Positions 23,037 through 30,732 of a stretch of DNA of 64,000 nucleotides are shown piece by piece. Every line of letters starts with the position of its first letter. The stretch's first letter is position 1. Under the pieces are notes generated by a model. It saw only the letters and a list, made by a program, of their open reading frames with translations, did not search any database and was not told where the DNA came from. This DNA comes from Flavobacterium nackdongense (GTDB lineage Bacteria; Bacteroidota; Bacteroidia; Flavobacteriales; Flavobacteriaceae): the NCBI RefSeq assembly GCF_004355225.1, contig NZ_CP037933.1:1674001-1738000 (forward strand), in the 5' to 3' direction. A program made the position numbers and the translations under genes.

Positions 23037-23759
23037 TTACGACAATTCTTTTTCCAATTCAATGGCTCCTGGAAAAAGAATATTGTTTTCTAAATGAATG
23101 TGCAGGTGTAAATCTTGTTCAAATTCTTTGAGCAATGCAATTGCCACTCCATAAGTATTGCAAGCATCTTGTGGTGGAGTGTAATTGTTGCTCAAGGCTT
23201 CAATTTTCCTAAATCGTTCGCCTTCGTTTGAATGTTCTTGCATCATGGCTTCAATCGGATTTTGCACCGTTCCAAAAGGAGCGCCTTCCACTTTACAACC
23301 TTCGTGTTGGGCTTTTGCCAATTTTCGAACAAAGGGAAACAATAGTAATTCTTCTTTTTTCATGTGCATCGCCAATTCGCCAGCAGTGGCATAGAAATGT
23401 TCCTTAATTTCAAACAATTCAGGATGGCGTTCCCCGTGAACTCTGCAAATTTTATCCAAATAAGGTAAAATCTCTGCCGTTTTTTCAACTACATAACGAT
23501 GGTGTTTTTTTTCGATATAATCAGCCAATAAATCCAGCGGCCAAGAAGCATAGTCTATGGTTCTGTCTTCTTGTCCCTGAATTATGACATCTAAATCACG
23601 CAACACCATTTTTGAATCTATTTTTTTCTTATCGCAGGCATCAGCAATGTTCCTGTTGCCCTGACAGCAAAAATCTATTCCGTATTTTTTGAACACGGAA
23701 GCCGCACGATAATCTTTGGCCACTAATTCACCAATAATTTGATTTTCTTGAATATTCAT
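23037..23759 (-). CDS. ric: Iron-sulfur cluster repair di-iron protein (RIC/ScdA), first copy
   Basis: A 240-aa RIC-family protein (YtfE/ScdA/DnrN), which restores Fe-S clusters damaged by NO or oxidants using a hemerythrin-like di-iron site. The N-terminal ScdA_N domain is marked by FKKYGIDFCCQGNRNIADAC. The hemerythrin domain supplies His and Glu ligands in KHHRYVVEKT, RVHGERHPEL, HMKKEELLLFPFV, MQEHSNEGERF and LHLHIHLENNILFP. It is about 65% similar by eye to the copy at 24613. The gene follows the Rrf2 regulator at 23828 and has an Rrf2 box at 23792-23805, which fits NO-induced expression. Confidence 0.93.
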   Translation of the reverse strand: MNIQENQIIGELVAKDYRAASVFKKYGIDFCCQGNRNIADACDKKKIDSKMVLRDLDVIIQGQEDRTIDYASWPLDLLADYIEKKHHRYVVEKTAEILPYLDKICRVHGERHPELFEIKEHFYATAGELAMHMKKEELLLFPFVRKLAKAQHEGCKVEGAPFGTVQNPIEAMMQEHSNEGERFRKIEALSNNYTPPQDACNTYGVAIALLKEFEQDLHLHIHLENNILFPGAIELEKELS

Positions 23760-24612: not shown

Positions 24613-25344
24613 ATGAGCTTACAAGAAATAACAACTATTGGTGATTTTGTAGCCAAGGACTATAGAACTGCTGAAATTTTTACAAAATACGAAATTGATT
24701 TTTGCTGTAAAGGGCAAAGAACCATTGATGAAGTTTGCAAAAAAATGAATCTAAACGAACCCCAATTATTACACGAGTTAAACGCTGTTTTAGCTACAAA
24801 AAATGATTCTGAAAATGATTTTGATTGTTGGTCTTTGGATGTATTGATAGATTATATCGAAAAAACACACCATCGATATGTCGAAGAAAAAACTCAAGCT
24901 CTAATTCCTTTTTTGGATAAATTATGCAACGTTCACGGAGTGAATCATCCTGAATTATGCGAAATAAATGCTCTTTTCAAAGAAGGTGCAAAAGAATTAG
25001 CATCACATATGAAAAAGGAAGAAATGATACTTTTTCCATTTGTCAAAGAAATGATTAATGCCACAAAAAGTCACGGAACCATCGGAAAACCTTTTTTTGA
25101 AACTGTAAAAAATCCGATTTCTGCAATGATGAACGAACATGAAACCGAAGGCGAACGATTTAGAGCAATTTCGGCTTTGACCAATAATTACACGCCACCC
25201 GAAGAGGCTTGCAATACCTACCAAGTAACCTATGCTATGTTGCAAGAATTTGAGCAAGATTTACACAAACATATCCATTTAGAAAGCAATATCTTATTTC
25301 CAAAAGCCAAAGCGCTAGAGAAATTTTTCTCGACAGAAGAATAA
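24613..25344 (+). CDS. ric: Iron-sulfur cluster repair di-iron protein (RIC/ScdA), second copy
   Basis: A 243-aa paralogue of the protein at 23037 with the same order of parts: ScdA_N domain (FTKYEIDFCCKGQRTIDEVC), then a hemerythrin-like domain with THHRYVEEKT, NVHGVNHPEL, HMKKEEMILFPFV, MNEHETEGERF and LHKHIHLESNILFP. It is the first gene of an operon with nrdD (42 bp downstream), so this copy is tied to anaerobic growth while the first copy follows the Rrf2 box. It may protect the radical-SAM and iron enzymes of the anaerobic ribonucleotide reductase; that is inference. Confidence 0.93.
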   Translation: MSLQEITTIGDFVAKDYRTAEIFTKYEIDFCCKGQRTIDEVCKKMNLNEPQLLHELNAVLATKNDSENDFDCWSLDVLIDYIEKTHHRYVEEKTQALIPFLDKLCNVHGVNHPELCEINALFKEGAKELASHMKKEEMILFPFVKEMINATKSHGTIGKPFFETVKNPISAMMNEHETEGERFRAISALTNNYTPPEEACNTYQVTYAMLQEFEQDLHKHIHLESNILFPKAKALEKFFSTEE

Positions 25345-25386: not shown

Positions 25387-27498
25387 ATGGAAAAGTACGT
25401 TATCAAAAGGAACGGCGATTACAAACCGTTTGAGAGCTTCAAAATTGAAGATGCCATCACAAAAAGTTTCAAAAGTGCAACCATTGCCTTTGACGAAAGT
25501 GTTTTTGAAGATGTAATGAAAAGATTGCAATACAAAGAAACTTGGGCAGTCGAAGAAATTCAGGATTTAATCGAAAAAAGTCTTTTTGAAAAACAGTACT
25601 TTGAAGTAATGCGCTCTTTTATGTTGTACCGTCACACCCGAAAATTACAACGGGAACACGTAGCAGGTATCAATGAAGACACTACCTATGTCGATAGCTC
25701 ACAAACCATTGCAGAATACATAGAACAAACCGATTGGCGTATCAATGCTAATGCGAACACTTCTTATTCCAATGCGGGATTAGTGAATAATGTAGCAGGA
25801 AAAATTATTGCTAATTATTGGCTGGACAAAGTCTATACCAAAGAAGAAGGGTACGCGCATAGAAATGGCGATGTTCACATTCACGATTTAGATTGCCTAA
25901 CTGGCTATTGTGCAGGTTGGAGTTTACGCGTTTTGCTCAACGAAGGATTCAACGGAGTTCGTGGTCGTGTCGAAAGCAAAGCACCCTCACATTTTAGAGA
26001 AGCCTTAGGTCAAATGGCCAATTTTATGGGAATTTTACAAAGCGAATGGGCTGGCGCCCAAGCATTCAGTTCGTTTGATACCTATTTAGCTCCTTACGTT
26101 TTCAAAGACGATTTAGGATTTGACGATGTATTGAAAGCCATTCGCAGTTTTGTTTACAACTTGAATGTTCCTGCGCGTTGGGGACAATCACCTTTCACCA
26201 ATATCACACTGGATTGGGTAGTTCCAGAAGATTTGAAAACTCAAATTCCAACTAAAAACGACTTCCATTTCTTTGAAAATAATTTCAATCACGACCTTTT
26301 GGTTAGAGCTCAAGAACGTGGCGTTACCAAAGTTACCGATTTGCGTTACGAGCATTTCCAAAAAGAAATGAACCTCATCAACAAAGCTTATTATACGGTA
26401 ATGACCGAAGGTGATGCCAACGGACAACCCTTTACTTTCCCAATCCCCACAGTAAATATCACCGAAGAATTCGATTGGAACGGCGAAAACACCGATTTGC
26501 TTTTCGAAAATACCGCCAAAATTGGCTCCTCGTACTTTCAAAATTTCATCGGAAGCCAATACAAATTAGACGAAAATGGAGAAAAAATAGAAAACGAAAA
26601 TGCCTATAAACCCAATGCGGTTCGCAGTATGTGTTGTCGTTTGCAACTCGATTTACGTGAATTATTGAAACGCGGAAACGGTCTTTTTGGAAGCGCCGAA
26701 ATGACTGGAAGTATTGGAGTTGTGACCATCAATATGGCGCGTTTGGGTTATTTGTACAGAGGAAACAAGGACGAATTATTCAAACAATTGGACAAATTAT
26801 TATACATTTCCAAATCGACTTTGGAGAAAAAACGCGTGTTTATTCAGGAAATGTACGATAGAGGTTTGTATCCGTATACCAAACGGTATTTGCAACATTT
26901 CAGAAACCACTTTTCTACGATTGGTGTCAACGGAATCAACGAAATGATTGTGAATTTTACAGGAAGAAAAGATACGGTTACTTCTGCATCAGGAATTGAT
27001 TTTGCTTCTGAAATTCTAGATCATATTCGCAATCGAATGAAAGAATTTCAAGAAGAAACGGGAAATTTATATAATTTGGAAGCCACGCCAGCCGAAGGAA
27101 CTACCTATCGTTTTGCCAAAGAAGATAAAAAACGTTTCCCAAACATTTTCCAAGCCGGACAAGAAGACAACATTTATTACACCAACAGCTCCCAAATTCC
27201 TGTCGATCACACCGAAGACCCCTTTGAAGCTTTATTATTGCAAGACGAATTGCAATGCAAATATACTGGCGGAACTGTGCTCCACTTATATATGAGCGAA
27301 AAAATGAGTTCGCCAGAAGCCTGTAAACAGTTTGTCAAAAAAGTGGTTTCCAGCTTTAGGTTGCCTTACATCACAGTTACTCCTGTCTTTAGTGTTTGTC
27401 CTGTTCACGGCTATTTGAATGGAGAGCACGAATATTGCCCTAAATGTGATGATACCTTAATTGAATTTGAAAAATTGAAAAAAGAAAAATCAAAATAA
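25387..27498 (+). CDS. nrdD: Anaerobic ribonucleoside-triphosphate reductase, catalytic chain without glycyl-radical segment
   Basis: A 703-aa class III ribonucleotide reductase large chain making dNTPs without oxygen. An ATP-cone domain opens it (YVIKRNGDYKPFESFKIEDA, residues 3-22). The barrel has NGDVHIHDLD, PARWGQSPFTN and AVRSMCCRLQLDLREL. A zinc site closes it (C671, H674, C684, C687 in VCPVHGY and EYCPKC). The usual C-terminal glycyl-radical loop is absent: the protein stops 16 residues after the zinc site. That loop is encoded separately at 27536-27706, in another frame. It is co-transcribed with ric2 and nrdG. Confidence 0.93.
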   Translation: MEKYVIKRNGDYKPFESFKIEDAITKSFKSATIAFDESVFEDVMKRLQYKETWAVEEIQDLIEKSLFEKQYFEVMRSFMLYRHTRKLQREHVAGINEDTTYVDSSQTIAEYIEQTDWRINANANTSYSNAGLVNNVAGKIIANYWLDKVYTKEEGYAHRNGDVHIHDLDCLTGYCAGWSLRVLLNEGFNGVRGRVESKAPSHFREALGQMANFMGILQSEWAGAQAFSSFDTYLAPYVFKDDLGFDDVLKAIRSFVYNLNVPARWGQSPFTNITLDWVVPEDLKTQIPTKNDFHFFENNFNHDLLVRAQERGVTKVTDLRYEHFQKEMNLINKAYYTVMTEGDANGQPFTFPIPTVNITEEFDWNGENTDLLFENTAKIGSSYFQNFIGSQYKLDENGEKIENENAYKPNAVRSMCCRLQLDLRELLKRGNGLFGSAEMTGSIGVVTINMARLGYLYRGNKDELFKQLDKLLYISKSTLEKKRVFIQEMYDRGLYPYTKRYLQHFRNHFSTIGVNGINEMIVNFTGRKDTVTSASGIDFASEILDHIRNRMKEFQEETGNLYNLEATPAEGTTYRFAKEDKKRFPNIFQAGQEDNIYYTNSSQIPVDHTEDPFEALLLQDELQCKYTGGTVLHLYMSEKMSSPEACKQFVKKVVSSFRLPYITVTPVFSVCPVHGYLNGEHEYCPKCDDTLIEFEKLKKEKSK

Positions 27499-27535
27499 CA
27501 TTCAACTTTAAACCATTATAAACTAAAAAGTAAAT

Positions 27536-27706
27536 ATGAAAACAGAAACCAAAACCAATCCGATTTTAGAGGAAAATCAGCATTTGAGAACAAAATGTTT
27601 GGTTTACACACGCGTAATGGGCTATCACAGACCCGTAGAAAGTTTTAATATTGGAAAAAAAGGTGAACACAAACAACGAACTCATTTTACTGAAGGAAAA
27701 TGTTAG
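27536..27706 (+). CDS. Separate glycyl-radical peptide of the anaerobic ribonucleotide reductase
   Basis: A 56-aa gene. Its second half reads YTRVMGYHRPVESFNIGKKG, which matches the glycyl-radical loop at the end of ordinary NrdD proteins (RVxGYxRPVxxxNxGK). G29 would be the radical residue. It starts at ATG 27536, 37 bp after the nrdD stop and in a different frame, with its own purine-rich leader (AACTAAAAAGTAAAT). It ends at TAG 27706, overlapping the start of nrdG. Two Cys (C21, C56) flank the loop. It should bind NrdD and be activated by NrdG in trans. A recent frameshift is the alternative, but the intact ATG, leader and complete loop argue for a real gene. Confidence 0.85.
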   Translation: MKTETKTNPILEENQHLRTKCLVYTRVMGYHRPVESFNIGKKGEHKQRTHFTEGKC

Positions 27707-28379
27707 TAAGCCCATTTACAGCTTAACACCTTTCACTTTATTAGATTATCCGCATAAATCAGCCTGCATTCTTTGGTTTGCAGGCTGTAATATGCGTTGC
27801 TTGTATTGTTATAACCCCGAGATTGTGCTCGGAAAAGGAAGTCTTTCTTTCGAAAAAATTCTTTCGTTTTTACAGTCTCGAAAAAATTTGTTAGACGCTG
27901 TCGTTTTTAGCGGAGGCGAATGTTTATTGCATAAAAAAATCATTGACCTCATTAGCCAGGTCAAAAAAATGGGTTTTTTGGTAAAAATTGACACCAATGG
28001 CAGTTCGCCAGAAGTAATGCAACAATTACTAAATCAAAATTGGGTCGATTACATCGCATTAGATTACAAAGCGCCTAAATCAAAATTTCAATCGATAACC
28101 AAATCCGATTTGTATGATTCTTTTGAAGAAACTTTCGATTTAATTTTAGAAAGCAGAATTCCTTTTGAAGTTCGAACCACCTACCATTCTGACTTGTTAA
28201 CAGAAAACGATTTGACCGCAATGATTCAGTTTTTGGAAAGCAAAAATTATGTAGGCAATTATTACATTCAATATTTTAAAAACAATGTTGAAACCTTATC
28301 AAAACTAAATCATTCCAACAACAAAATTGATTGCGAAAAATTATCCACACCAACAATAAAGATTAGCATAAGAGATTAA
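27663..28379 (+). CDS. nrdG: Anaerobic ribonucleotide reductase activating protein (radical SAM)
   Basis: A radical-SAM activase that makes the glycyl radical on the reductase. The cluster motif is CNMRCLYC (CxxxCxxC) within ACILWFAGCNMRCLYCYNPE, followed by VVFSGGECLL (GGE motif). No ATG precedes the domain: GTG 27663 and TTG 27651 are the possible starts, both inside the 56-aa glycyl-radical gene, so translation is probably coupled. I chose GTG 27663. The C-terminus continues to about residue 238, longer than the smallest NrdG and like the NrdG2 subgroup. Confidence 0.88.
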   Translation: MNTNNELILLKENVSKPIYSLTPFTLLDYPHKSACILWFAGCNMRCLYCYNPEIVLGKGSLSFEKILSFLQSRKNLLDAVVFSGGECLLHKKIIDLISQVKKMGFLVKIDTNGSSPEVMQQLLNQNWVDYIALDYKAPKSKFQSITKSDLYDSFEETFDLILESRIPFEVRTTYHSDLLTENDLTAMIQFLESKNYVGNYYIQYFKNNVETLSKLNHSNNKIDCEKLSTPTIKISIRD

Positions 28380-28404: not shown

Positions 28405-28836
28405 ATGTTTTCAAAAACCTGTGAATACGCCATTCGTGCCACCATCTATATCGCAACACAATCGTACGAGAATAAAAGAGTTACGATAAAAGAAATTGCC
28501 GAAAATATTGATTCTCCTTTGTCTTTCACGGCCAAAATTTTGCAAGTTTTAGCCAAAAAAGGAATTGTGCAATCCATCAAAGGAATCGGTGGCGGTTTTG
28601 AAATCCCGAAAGAAGATATAAAAAAAATAAGTCTTTCTCAAATTGTGACAGCCATTGATGGCGATGTTATTTTTACGGGATGTGGCTTAGGTTTACATCA
28701 TTGCTCACAGGAACGCCCTTGTCCGCTTAACAAAAAATTCAAAAGCATCCGAGAAGATCTTGCCAAAATGCTCGAGAGCACTTACCTCGAAGAACTTGCT
28801 TTGGATATCAATTCTGGCGATTCGTTTTTGACATAA
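28405..28836 (+). CDS. Rrf2-family transcriptional regulator, second copy
   Basis: A 143-aa Rrf2 regulator paralogous to the one at 23828 (shared MFSKxCEYxIRAxIxIA start). The cluster motif is CGLGLHHCSQERPC (Cx6Cx5C). The recognition region (SPLSFTAKILQVLAKKGI) differs from the first copy, so the DNA targets may differ. It closes the ric2-nrdD-nrdG operon, 25 bp after nrdG. A plausible role is feedback control of this operon or of other Fe-S and NO responses. It is followed by a strong bidirectional terminator. Confidence 0.9.
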   Translation: MFSKTCEYAIRATIYIATQSYENKRVTIKEIAENIDSPLSFTAKILQVLAKKGIVQSIKGIGGGFEIPKEDIKKISLSQIVTAIDGDVIFTGCGLGLHHCSQERPCPLNKKFKSIREDLAKMLESTYLEELALDINSGDSFLT

Positions 28837-28920: not shown

Positions 28921-30732
28921 TTAAGCGACCACCAATTCTGGCACTTCAACTCCAATTAGCTCATTGGTGTAATATTCCAATTGGTTTTGGATTGCTTCAA
29001 TACTACTTTCAAAATAATTTGAATTCGCAAAAAAGTTTTGGTAAAAGCCAATACCTTCTAACAAATTACTTTTGAAGGCTTTCAATTTCTTCACTTGCGA
29101 AGCATTAATTTCAGTCGAAATGTTTTTGATGTCATTTTTCAAATAATCAATATACATCTTTAACTCTTTAATGAATAAATTGGGTCTGTTTGGATCCGTC
29201 ATCACATTAAAATTGCCGTAGATATGTCGCACCATTTCCGAAAGCGAAACTTCTTTGTCAAAATAAGCCAAATTAGGCCCTGGACAAACAATCACACCTT
29301 GCGACTGCCCTTTTATTTCGATGTCATTTTCGAGGTAAGAGGCATTGGCTAGACCAACACAAAGACAAGCTTTCTCGGTAATATCGAATTTCATTCTATC
29401 ATACGCTTCTTGCGATAAAGTTTCTTTTATTTCGTTCAACTCGTCTAATTTTACATCTTGATATTTCTTAGACGAGGTACAAATTCCTTCGGGACCGAAC
29501 TCTTTGCTCAGCGCTAAAAACTTTTTCGGACACGAGCTTCCTGCTTTATCATCATCAATACGTTGTTGTTTGAACATTTCGTTTGAAGTACCTCGAACAG
29601 TATTAAACGGCACTCCCAACGGCGAAATATGACTTAAATACAAATCTTTTTCTTTGGCATTTTGCAACAATTCACGAGTTTCAGCGTCAACCGAAGTAGC
29701 TTCTGGCACCAATAAAAACGGTGTTCCCCAACCTACGGCATCCACATTGTAATACTCCATCATAAAATCGTGTTCTTCAGCAGTACCAACACCGCCTTGA
29801 ACCGTAATTTTCAATTCCAAAGGAGTTGAAGGAATTGGCAATCCTTTTTGCGCCAAGGCTTTCACCATAATATCGTGAGCAGATTGTACCAATTGGTCTT
29901 TTTTATGTTTGAATTCTTCCATAATCGGACCTAATAGAAATCCGTCGGTAGCAAAAGCGTGCCCACCGCAATTCAAACCTGATTCGATACGGTATTCCGA
30001 AACCCAAAGCCCTTTTTTAGCCAAGAAATTTCCTTGAATCATTGCCGAACGGTAATCACTTACTTTCAGAATAATTTTCTTTTTCAATTGGTTGTTTGCA
30101 TCTGGAAAAAAGCAAGGAAAACTTTCGAAATAAGCGAATAACCTTGGATTCATTCCCGCCGACAAAACGATGGAAGACGTCAAATTACTGTTGGCAAAAC
30201 CACGAAGCGCCGCGTGTGCATCATTGAATTCTACTGGCAATTGTTCTCCATTGGCAAAATTGTCTTTATCCAACTTTGTCATAATGTTGACATCAATATC
30301 TCCACGATAAATGTGCTCTTCGAGGTACTTTTTGATGTTTTCTTTCAAAGCCATTCCGTCTTCTAAAAGATGCTCTAATCCTTCTTTGATTTCCGATTTG
30401 TTCGGCAACATTGCAATATAATTTTCTAATGCCTGTTTGCTCTCTGATAATTCCGTCTTGAAATTTTCAAATTTTTCTTTTACAATGGTATCGACTAAGT
30501 TCAAATACGAAGTAATTCGTTCAGCGCGATAATCCTGAATTTTTTTGGTTATTTCTTGGTAAGGAACATCGAATTTTTCGCTGTAAAAAGCTCTCATTTT
30601 CTCAATTAGTTCATCATCCGCAAGCGCAATAACCGATGATATTCCGTATTTTGCTACTCGAATTGGACTATCAATGGTGAAAGCCAATCCCATCACTGGA
30701 ATATGAAATGTATGTAACTGTTTATTTGTCAT
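28921..30732 (-). CDS. Conserved protein of unknown function, possible flavin/TIM-barrel and Cys-rich
   Basis: I do not recognise a named family for this 603-aa protein. There is no signal peptide or TM segment. The N-terminus (HTFHIPVMGLAFTIDSPIRV) reads like a barrel entry. The middle holds LNCGGHAFATDGFLLGPIM and later TVQGGVGTAEEHDFMM plus VDAVGWGTPFLLVPEA. That last pair resembles the phosphate-binding end of nitronate monooxygenase-type FMN barrels (inference). Cysteines cluster in SSCPKKF, EGICTSS, KACLCVGL and VIVCPGPN, enough for a metal cluster. Helical arms lie near residues 50-140 and 530-600. A Crp/Fnr-type box precedes it (30797-30812), tying it to the anaerobic regulon. Confidence 0.75.
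   Translation of the reverse strand: MTNKQLHTFHIPVMGLAFTIDSPIRVAKYGISSVIALADDELIEKMRAFYSEKFDVPYQEITKKIQDYRAERITSYLNLVDTIVKEKFENFKTELSESKQALENYIAMLPNKSEIKEGLEHLLEDGMALKENIKKYLEEHIYRGDIDVNIMTKLDKDNFANGEQLPVEFNDAHAALRGFANSNLTSSIVLSAGMNPRLFAYFESFPCFFPDANNQLKKKIILKVSDYRSAMIQGNFLAKKGLWVSEYRIESGLNCGGHAFATDGFLLGPIMEEFKHKKDQLVQSAHDIMVKALAQKGLPIPSTPLELKITVQGGVGTAEEHDFMMEYYNVDAVGWGTPFLLVPEATSVDAETRELLQNAKEKDLYLSHISPLGVPFNTVRGTSNEMFKQQRIDDDKAGSSCPKKFLALSKEFGPEGICTSSKKYQDVKLDELNEIKETLSQEAYDRMKFDITEKACLCVGLANASYLENDIEIKGQSQGVIVCPGPNLAYFDKEVSLSEMVRHIYGNFNVMTDPNRPNLFIKELKMYIDYLKNDIKNISTEINASQVKKLKAFKSNLLEGIGFYQNFFANSNYFESSIEAIQNQLEYYTNELIGVEVPELVVA

Follow-up and report, generated by a model that had tools for sequence, protein, structure and literature searches.

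The locus described here raises the question of whether a class III ribonucleotide reductase can carry its glycyl radical on a second, separately encoded chain. It lies in a stretch of 64,000 nucleotides (nt) from Flavobacterium nackdongense (assembly GCF_004355225.1, contig NZ_CP037933.1, positions 1,674,001 to 1,738,000 of the forward strand), hereafter the window. The gene for the large chain, nrdD, ends without the glycyl-radical loop, which is encoded by a small gene placed between nrdD and the activase gene nrdG. The features concerned, with window coordinates and lengths in amino acids (aa), are the following:

25387..27498, + strand: nrdD, large chain of the class III reductase without the glycyl-radical loop (703 aa; open reading frame and profile matches)
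27397..27447, + strand: codons C671–C687 of the zinc motif, after which NrdD has no further conserved element (sequence and alignment)
27536..27706, + strand: separate gene for a 56-aa glycyl-radical loop protein (leader 1–17 variable, core 18–51 conserved)
27620..27622, + strand: codon of Gly29, the predicted radical glycine within RVMGYHRP
27651..28379, + strand: nrdG, activase of the NrdG2 type, a radical S-adenosylmethionine protein (candidate starts TTG at 27651, GTG at 27663 or downstream)

The large chain and the loop protein

An earlier note on this DNA had claimed that NrdD stops 16 residues after its zinc site, that it lacks the loop, and that the complete loop is encoded in another frame at 27536–27706. 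These claims were borne out. The last zinc residue is Cys687 in a chain of 703 aa, and the NRDD profile PF13597 matched NrdD from profile position 2 to 531 of 562 (541.5 bits, E 3.3e-162) and the 56-aa open reading frame (ORF) from 532 to 562 (28.4 bits, cut-off 26.2, E 8.4e-7), so that the two matches abut with neither gap nor overlap. The small ORF is in the +1 frame relative to nrdD and begins 37 nt past its stop codon. With NF006126 (NCBIfam, 684 positions), NrdD covered positions 3–651 and the small protein 649–682. Among Pfam families at E values up to 1, the small protein matched NRDD alone, and a sequence search of the PDB with it gave no match at E values up to 10. The note had also described an overlap of the loop gene with nrdG; the nrdG frame overlaps the 3' end of the loop gene if translation starts at the TTG or GTG codon, two of the candidate starts of nrdG. 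The adjoining NrdG protein matched TIGR02495 (NrdG2) with 201.7 bits.

The large chain has an ATP-cone (residues 3–86, PF03477, 64.7 bits), the barrel, HIHD at 164–167, Cys175, a double-cysteine MCCR finger loop at 415–418, and a zinc motif formed by C671, H674, C684 and C687, after which comes the tail of 16 residues. HIHD, C175, MCCR and the zinc residues were invariant in a seven-row alignment; we follow PMC9669993 and PMC11226230 for the meaning of the finger-loop, HxHD and zinc motifs. Barrel, ATP-cone, catalytic and zinc motifs and an adjacent activase are thus all present, as expected of a class III enzyme, and only the loop on the same chain is absent. In the 56-aa protein, the predicted radical site is Gly29 within RVMGYHRP, and the tail has the form SFNxGKKGEHxQR. 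Across loci, the core of the small protein is almost fixed, and its leader and the tail of the large chain vary.

Strong purifying selection acts on the loop gene. In 82 distinct 63-nt sequences of the loop core, the proportions of synonymous and nonsynonymous differences (pS and pN) were 0.72 and 0.023, giving a pN/pS of 0.033, a value lowered by the pattern used to extract the core, which fixes most of its 21 residues; the other two frames gave ratios of 1.85 and 11. This pattern was present in 100 of the 102 source sequences, the exceptions (L036 and L042) being fused, and no split sequence was lost to it. It is very probable that the locus encodes a two-chain class III reductase in which the radical would be borne by a small docking subunit.

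Distribution of the separate loop gene

The split of NrdD is a trait of the lineage. The note had asked whether Flavobacteriaceae orthologues keep the break. In 150 genomes of Flavobacterium, an NrdD over the cut-off was encoded by 51, all of them included in the 52 genomes with the small gene; the extra small gene (G965) lay 39 bases from a contig start. The separate loop frames measured 53–92 aa. Some long frames, including one of 808 aa (G986), resembled fusions, and all five such regions that were fetched proved to be split. Two Flavobacterium genomes contained short nrdD remnants (G313:C1:3608821-3608946 and G975:C1:3767847-3767927, the latter of 27 residues) in which the loop gene was not found, and this is consistent with loss of the whole unit.

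In a family sample of 149 genomes, a close NrdD was found in four, all split; weak matches in 38 other genomes corresponded to the ATP-cones of other proteins and to a distant NrdD type, about 30% identical, with the loop on its own chain. The class sample (395 genomes) yielded 11 NrdD spanning seven families, every one split. In the phylum sample (395 genomes), 21 NrdD exceeded the cut-off, ten of them split, each with its small gene, and 11 fused, the latter all outside the class of the source organism; one further weak loop match (G271) contains a stop. From 533 loci, 80 were kept as named loci, and 78 of these have nrdD sequence and a separate gene on the contig, the other two being at contig ends. 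The fused close relatives that the note had reckoned with as a counter-argument therefore did not appear, and nor did its other case, a second intact nrdD elsewhere: the source genome is a single closed contig of 4.22 Mb with this NrdD only, together with one PF02867 reductase chain and two PF01228 enzymes.

The split design is common to Bacteroidota, alpha-, beta- and gammaproteobacteria, Campylobacterota and phages. A search of 5.8 billion proteins with three queries recovered 3605, 2317 and 6190 small relatives, some of which may be pieces of fused genes cut at contig ends. The best 120 per query include proteins from Flavobacterium, Leadbetterella, Campylobacter, Cupriavidus, Hydrogenophaga and Caudoviricetes, and the names given to small relatives by their sources are anaerobic ribonucleoside-triphosphate reductase, hypothetical protein and oxidoreductase.

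A protein search of plasmid records with two queries returned 28 and 29 records. Among the 17 plasmid loci fetched, 11 had the split form, nrdD and the small gene standing side by side (Cupriavidus necator H16, C. metallidurans, Aquabacterium, Bradyrhizobium, Paracoccus, Cereibacter, Shinella, Azospira, Sulfuricystis, Thiothrix, with a broken frame for nrdD, and the campylobacterotal Sulfuricurvum), five were fused (two Acidiphilium, Acidithiobacillus, Actinomyces and Geoalkalibacter; the plasmids of Acidiphilium cryptum and Acidithiobacillus have a region in common and are not independent), and one had the small gene with no annotated nrdD. On plasmid pALVIN01 of Allochromatium vinosum (L236, 4480–4689), a loop gene stands beside a CHAP-domain gene, and the annotation of the 9 kb fetched includes no nrdD. 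On pHG1 of C. necator, the order is nrdD, small gene (66 aa), nrdG, and the truncated NrdD has 676 aa; this NrdD is reportedly of 76.2 kDa, which would fit that length. On the megaplasmid of C. metallidurans, the small loop gene sits between Rmet_5137 and Rmet_5139, the two genes given as nrdDG in PMC2864759, where NrdDG is also described, citing Siedow 1999, as essential for complete denitrification in C. necator.

A relative of the small protein was encoded by 58 IMG/VR contigs. When PF13597 was run over the whole of 50 of these records, which may be fragments, it detected the NrdD core in two, the C-terminal loop part alone in 47 and nothing in one, in which the loop was nonetheless seen in the sequence; the records left out were L152, L154, L160, L164 (which does carry NrdD), L188, L197, L204 and L208. 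Ten proteins from five viral contigs were tested, and the loop gene had phage surroundings in four. It is flanked by a portal gene on one side and a minor head gene on the other in L190, and in L153 it adjoins an amidase/endolysin gene, with a terminase gene 3.6 kb further on; in L155 it lies about 2 kb from a terminase gene and in L161 about 3.4 kb from a tail-fibre gene. The L157 protein tested had no match. The window protein and the three viral loop proteins tested matched the later part of phrog_4132, a profile of length 179 to which its library assigns no function. In an annotated phage collection, the window protein found one relative, the L157 query none and the L187 query two. The ANMV-1 virus, which is archaeal, encodes a free-standing loop protein of 144 aa with two CxxC motifs of its own (L234, 4207–4641). 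The viral NrdD frames of L246, L269, L283, L284, L287 and L301 are 970–1035 aa long, which leaves room for inteins or insertions.

Evolution of the break and proposed working of the two chains

The trees were quick ones, midpoint rooted, built from 43 and 45 chosen rows, supported by the Shimodaira–Hasegawa-like approximate likelihood ratio test (SH-aLRT) only and with long branches flagged, L268 included. For the tree of 43 rows, NrdD chains were truncated at the zinc motif; the split ones grouped together (SH-aLRT 100 relative to the remaining fused enzymes), and this group also contained three fused members, with values of 86 and 92 at the inner forks. The 45-chain tree, which includes viral NrdD, needed seven state changes, five of them forced by starred branches; in it, the viral L299, L284, L272/L273 and L287 are split chains surrounded by fused relatives, and the main split clade includes the fused chains of Acidithiobacillus and L268. 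On these topologies, the break has changed state several times. The fused relatives within the split clade (Acidiphilium, Acidithiobacillus and Actinomyces) unite the same two parts. The zinc motif and the loop are separated by a linker of six residues in 25 of 36 distinct fused C-termini, of 11 in eight and of 14 in three, the last being the three plasmid members of the split clade, whose linkers are as expected of re-joined genes. In the viral L272, L273 and L287, the large chain ends and the small chain begins with a long tail that by eye resembles a helix, which suggests a docking pair. A cysteine at position –8 from the glycine (Cys21 in the window protein) was found in 357 of 358 small proteins versus 15 of 36 fused C-termini, the small proteins being a non-random set of 360, the best 120 for each of three queries, of which two lacked the motif; this residue is a possible anchor of the small protein on the large chain.

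In one-chain NrdD, the barrel encloses the loop, whose glycine is close to the finger-loop cysteine, and the tail passes across the barrel top (PMC11226230); for NrdG, the domain flips outward (PMC12662201). In the two-chain enzyme that we propose, the large chain would supply the ATP-cone, the barrel, the catalytic cysteines and the zinc site, and the small chain the radical loop. NrdG would generate the radical at Gly29 in the small chain, and the loop would then sit in the barrel near the MCCR cysteines as in the one-chain enzymes, with the SFNxGKKGEHxQR tail over the barrel. In place of the short linker there would be two extensions that probably dock, the C-terminal tail of NrdD and the N-terminal leader of the loop protein, and the break would leave the zinc platform on the large chain and free loop and tail as one unit.

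Several points weigh against this proposal. Two independent chains cost binding energy. The nrdD frame is broken in two split loci, L073 (one of the 78 named above) and L237. Moreover, the viral L268, a fused chain on a long branch within the split clade, has an ordinary six-residue linker and does not look re-joined.

Oxygen cuts a glycyl-radical chain at the glycine, so in a two-chain reductase the 56-residue part would be lost and the large chain would be reusable. Oxygen would destroy the charged small protein, and a fresh copy would restore the same NrdD. That the separate loop brings an advantage through such exchange is possible, although we would rate it somewhat below an even chance. 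We suggest only tentatively, as a rather doubtful extension, that class III reductase natively uses the 56-residue protein as an exchangeable radical cofactor, and that phage and plasmid copies standing alone serve as spare parts keeping the host reductase running.

The main rival, which we place just short of an even chance, accepts the same two-chain enzyme and holds that it arose by neutral fission, the chains staying together after synthesis, with neither exchange nor benefit against oxygen. In its favour, the distance between the two genes in the bacterial operons examined is no more than about 630 nt, and the fused members inside the split clade imply that a single chain is also viable. 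However, repeated splits at one site, with the five forced changes, suggest that the free part has a use of its own, as do the virus records in which the small gene but not NrdD was detected; genes of the nitrate, nitric oxide and iron-repair types near several loci may also speak against neutrality.

It is very improbable that a programmed frameshift, read-through of the stop codon or bypassing joins the two pieces in the cell. In favour of joining, the pieces are neighbours and in order. However, in 105 split loci (a count that includes some genomes twice), the small gene was in relative frame 1 in 55, frame 0 in 32 and frame 2 in 18, and in 77 named loci its distance from nrdD ranged from an overlap of 83 nt, possibly overstated since starts were taken as the first ATG, to a gap of 287 nt, with 631 nt in L005. 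Such variable frames and distances make frameshift or read-through very unlikely. The locus pattern missed the NrdD of L141, L209 and L235, which were found otherwise, and the fused L240.

Service of the small protein to another glycyl-radical enzyme is extremely improbable: the genome does encode two PF01228 proteins that might be its partners, but the protein has no Pfam match other than NRDD, its gene sits between nrdD and nrdG, and in the 395 phylum genomes, the weak G271 match aside, the separate gene was found in the ten with truncated NrdD. Finally, decay does occur in the group (the G313 and G975 remnants, and the broken frames of L073 and L237), but a sequencing error or pseudogene at the window locus has a negligible probability and was ruled out by the identical break in every close relative examined, the selection on the loop gene and the complete catalytic motifs.

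Known systems and gene neighbourhoods

The one-chain NrdD of Prevotella copri, T4 and Thermotoga resemble the window enzyme in the ATP-cone, NRDD barrel, HxHD, finger-loop cysteines, zinc motif, loop sequence and adjacent NrdG; they differ from it in that the window loop is on a second chain and that two tails of variable sequence take the place of the short linker. To our knowledge, native glycyl-radical enzymes carry the radical glycine on the catalytic chain. The note had likened the small protein to the spare part YfiD/GrcA. As a comparison of how the parts work, this is fair: YfiD/GrcA and T4 Y06I are likewise small separate proteins with a glycyl-radical loop, with phage-borne copies. 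Andorfer 2021 gives YfiD and Y06I, both for pyruvate formate-lyase, as the only validated spare parts and speculates on other enzymes; activation of YfiD was seen only with cut pyruvate formate-lyase (PMC8683613). The window protein belongs to the NRDD family and did not match PF01228 (Gly_radical), and the window NrdD itself lacks a loop; the part would therefore be obligatory and not an addition for repair. We take YfiD to be a member of PF01228. Pseudomonas NrdJa/NrdJb is also a reductase made from two consecutive genes, but it is a class II enzyme that uses cobalamin, unlike the NRDD-family window protein.

A search of the open-licence literature found no description of a split NrdD. The two-gene architecture is a new form of class III reductase, although automatic annotation already names some of the small copies after the reductase. 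If the small protein is an exchangeable cofactor, it would extend such systems beyond pyruvate formate-lyase for the first time, and in several bacterial phyla. A native two-chain form would allow the radical-bearing part to be exchanged, labelled or mutated with the enzyme untouched, and would permit a direct test of the repair of oxygen damage by replacement of a part, a possibility that Andorfer 2021 raised for other enzymes. Truncated-looking NrdD genes would then not necessarily be errors, and a function would be offered for a phage family that has none assigned.

The reductase unit of the window is bordered by two further genes:

24613..25344, + strand: protein with ScdA_N and hemerythrin domains (iron-centre repair type), 5' of nrdD
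28405..28836, + strand: regulator of the Rrf2 family, 3' of nrdG

ORFs of the window between 14 and 21 kb read as candidates for a nitrate reductase and nitrate transporters. Several neighbourhoods elsewhere are similar: in pHG1, norB, Rrf2 and hemerythrin genes are near the unit, which in Sulfuricurvum has NnrS and napA nearby and in Shinella nosL; neighbours differ in other loci, as in Aquabacterium, with arsenic genes. The recurrent neighbours would fit a reductase for nitrate-driven anaerobic growth. Beside the reductase unit of the window, a 603-aa ORF (28921–30732, – strand) had no Pfam match at E values up to 0.01. The ScdA_N/hemerythrin gene resembles another ORF of the window (23037–23759, – strand); an Rrf2 gene lies between the two, that after nrdG being the second of its kind.

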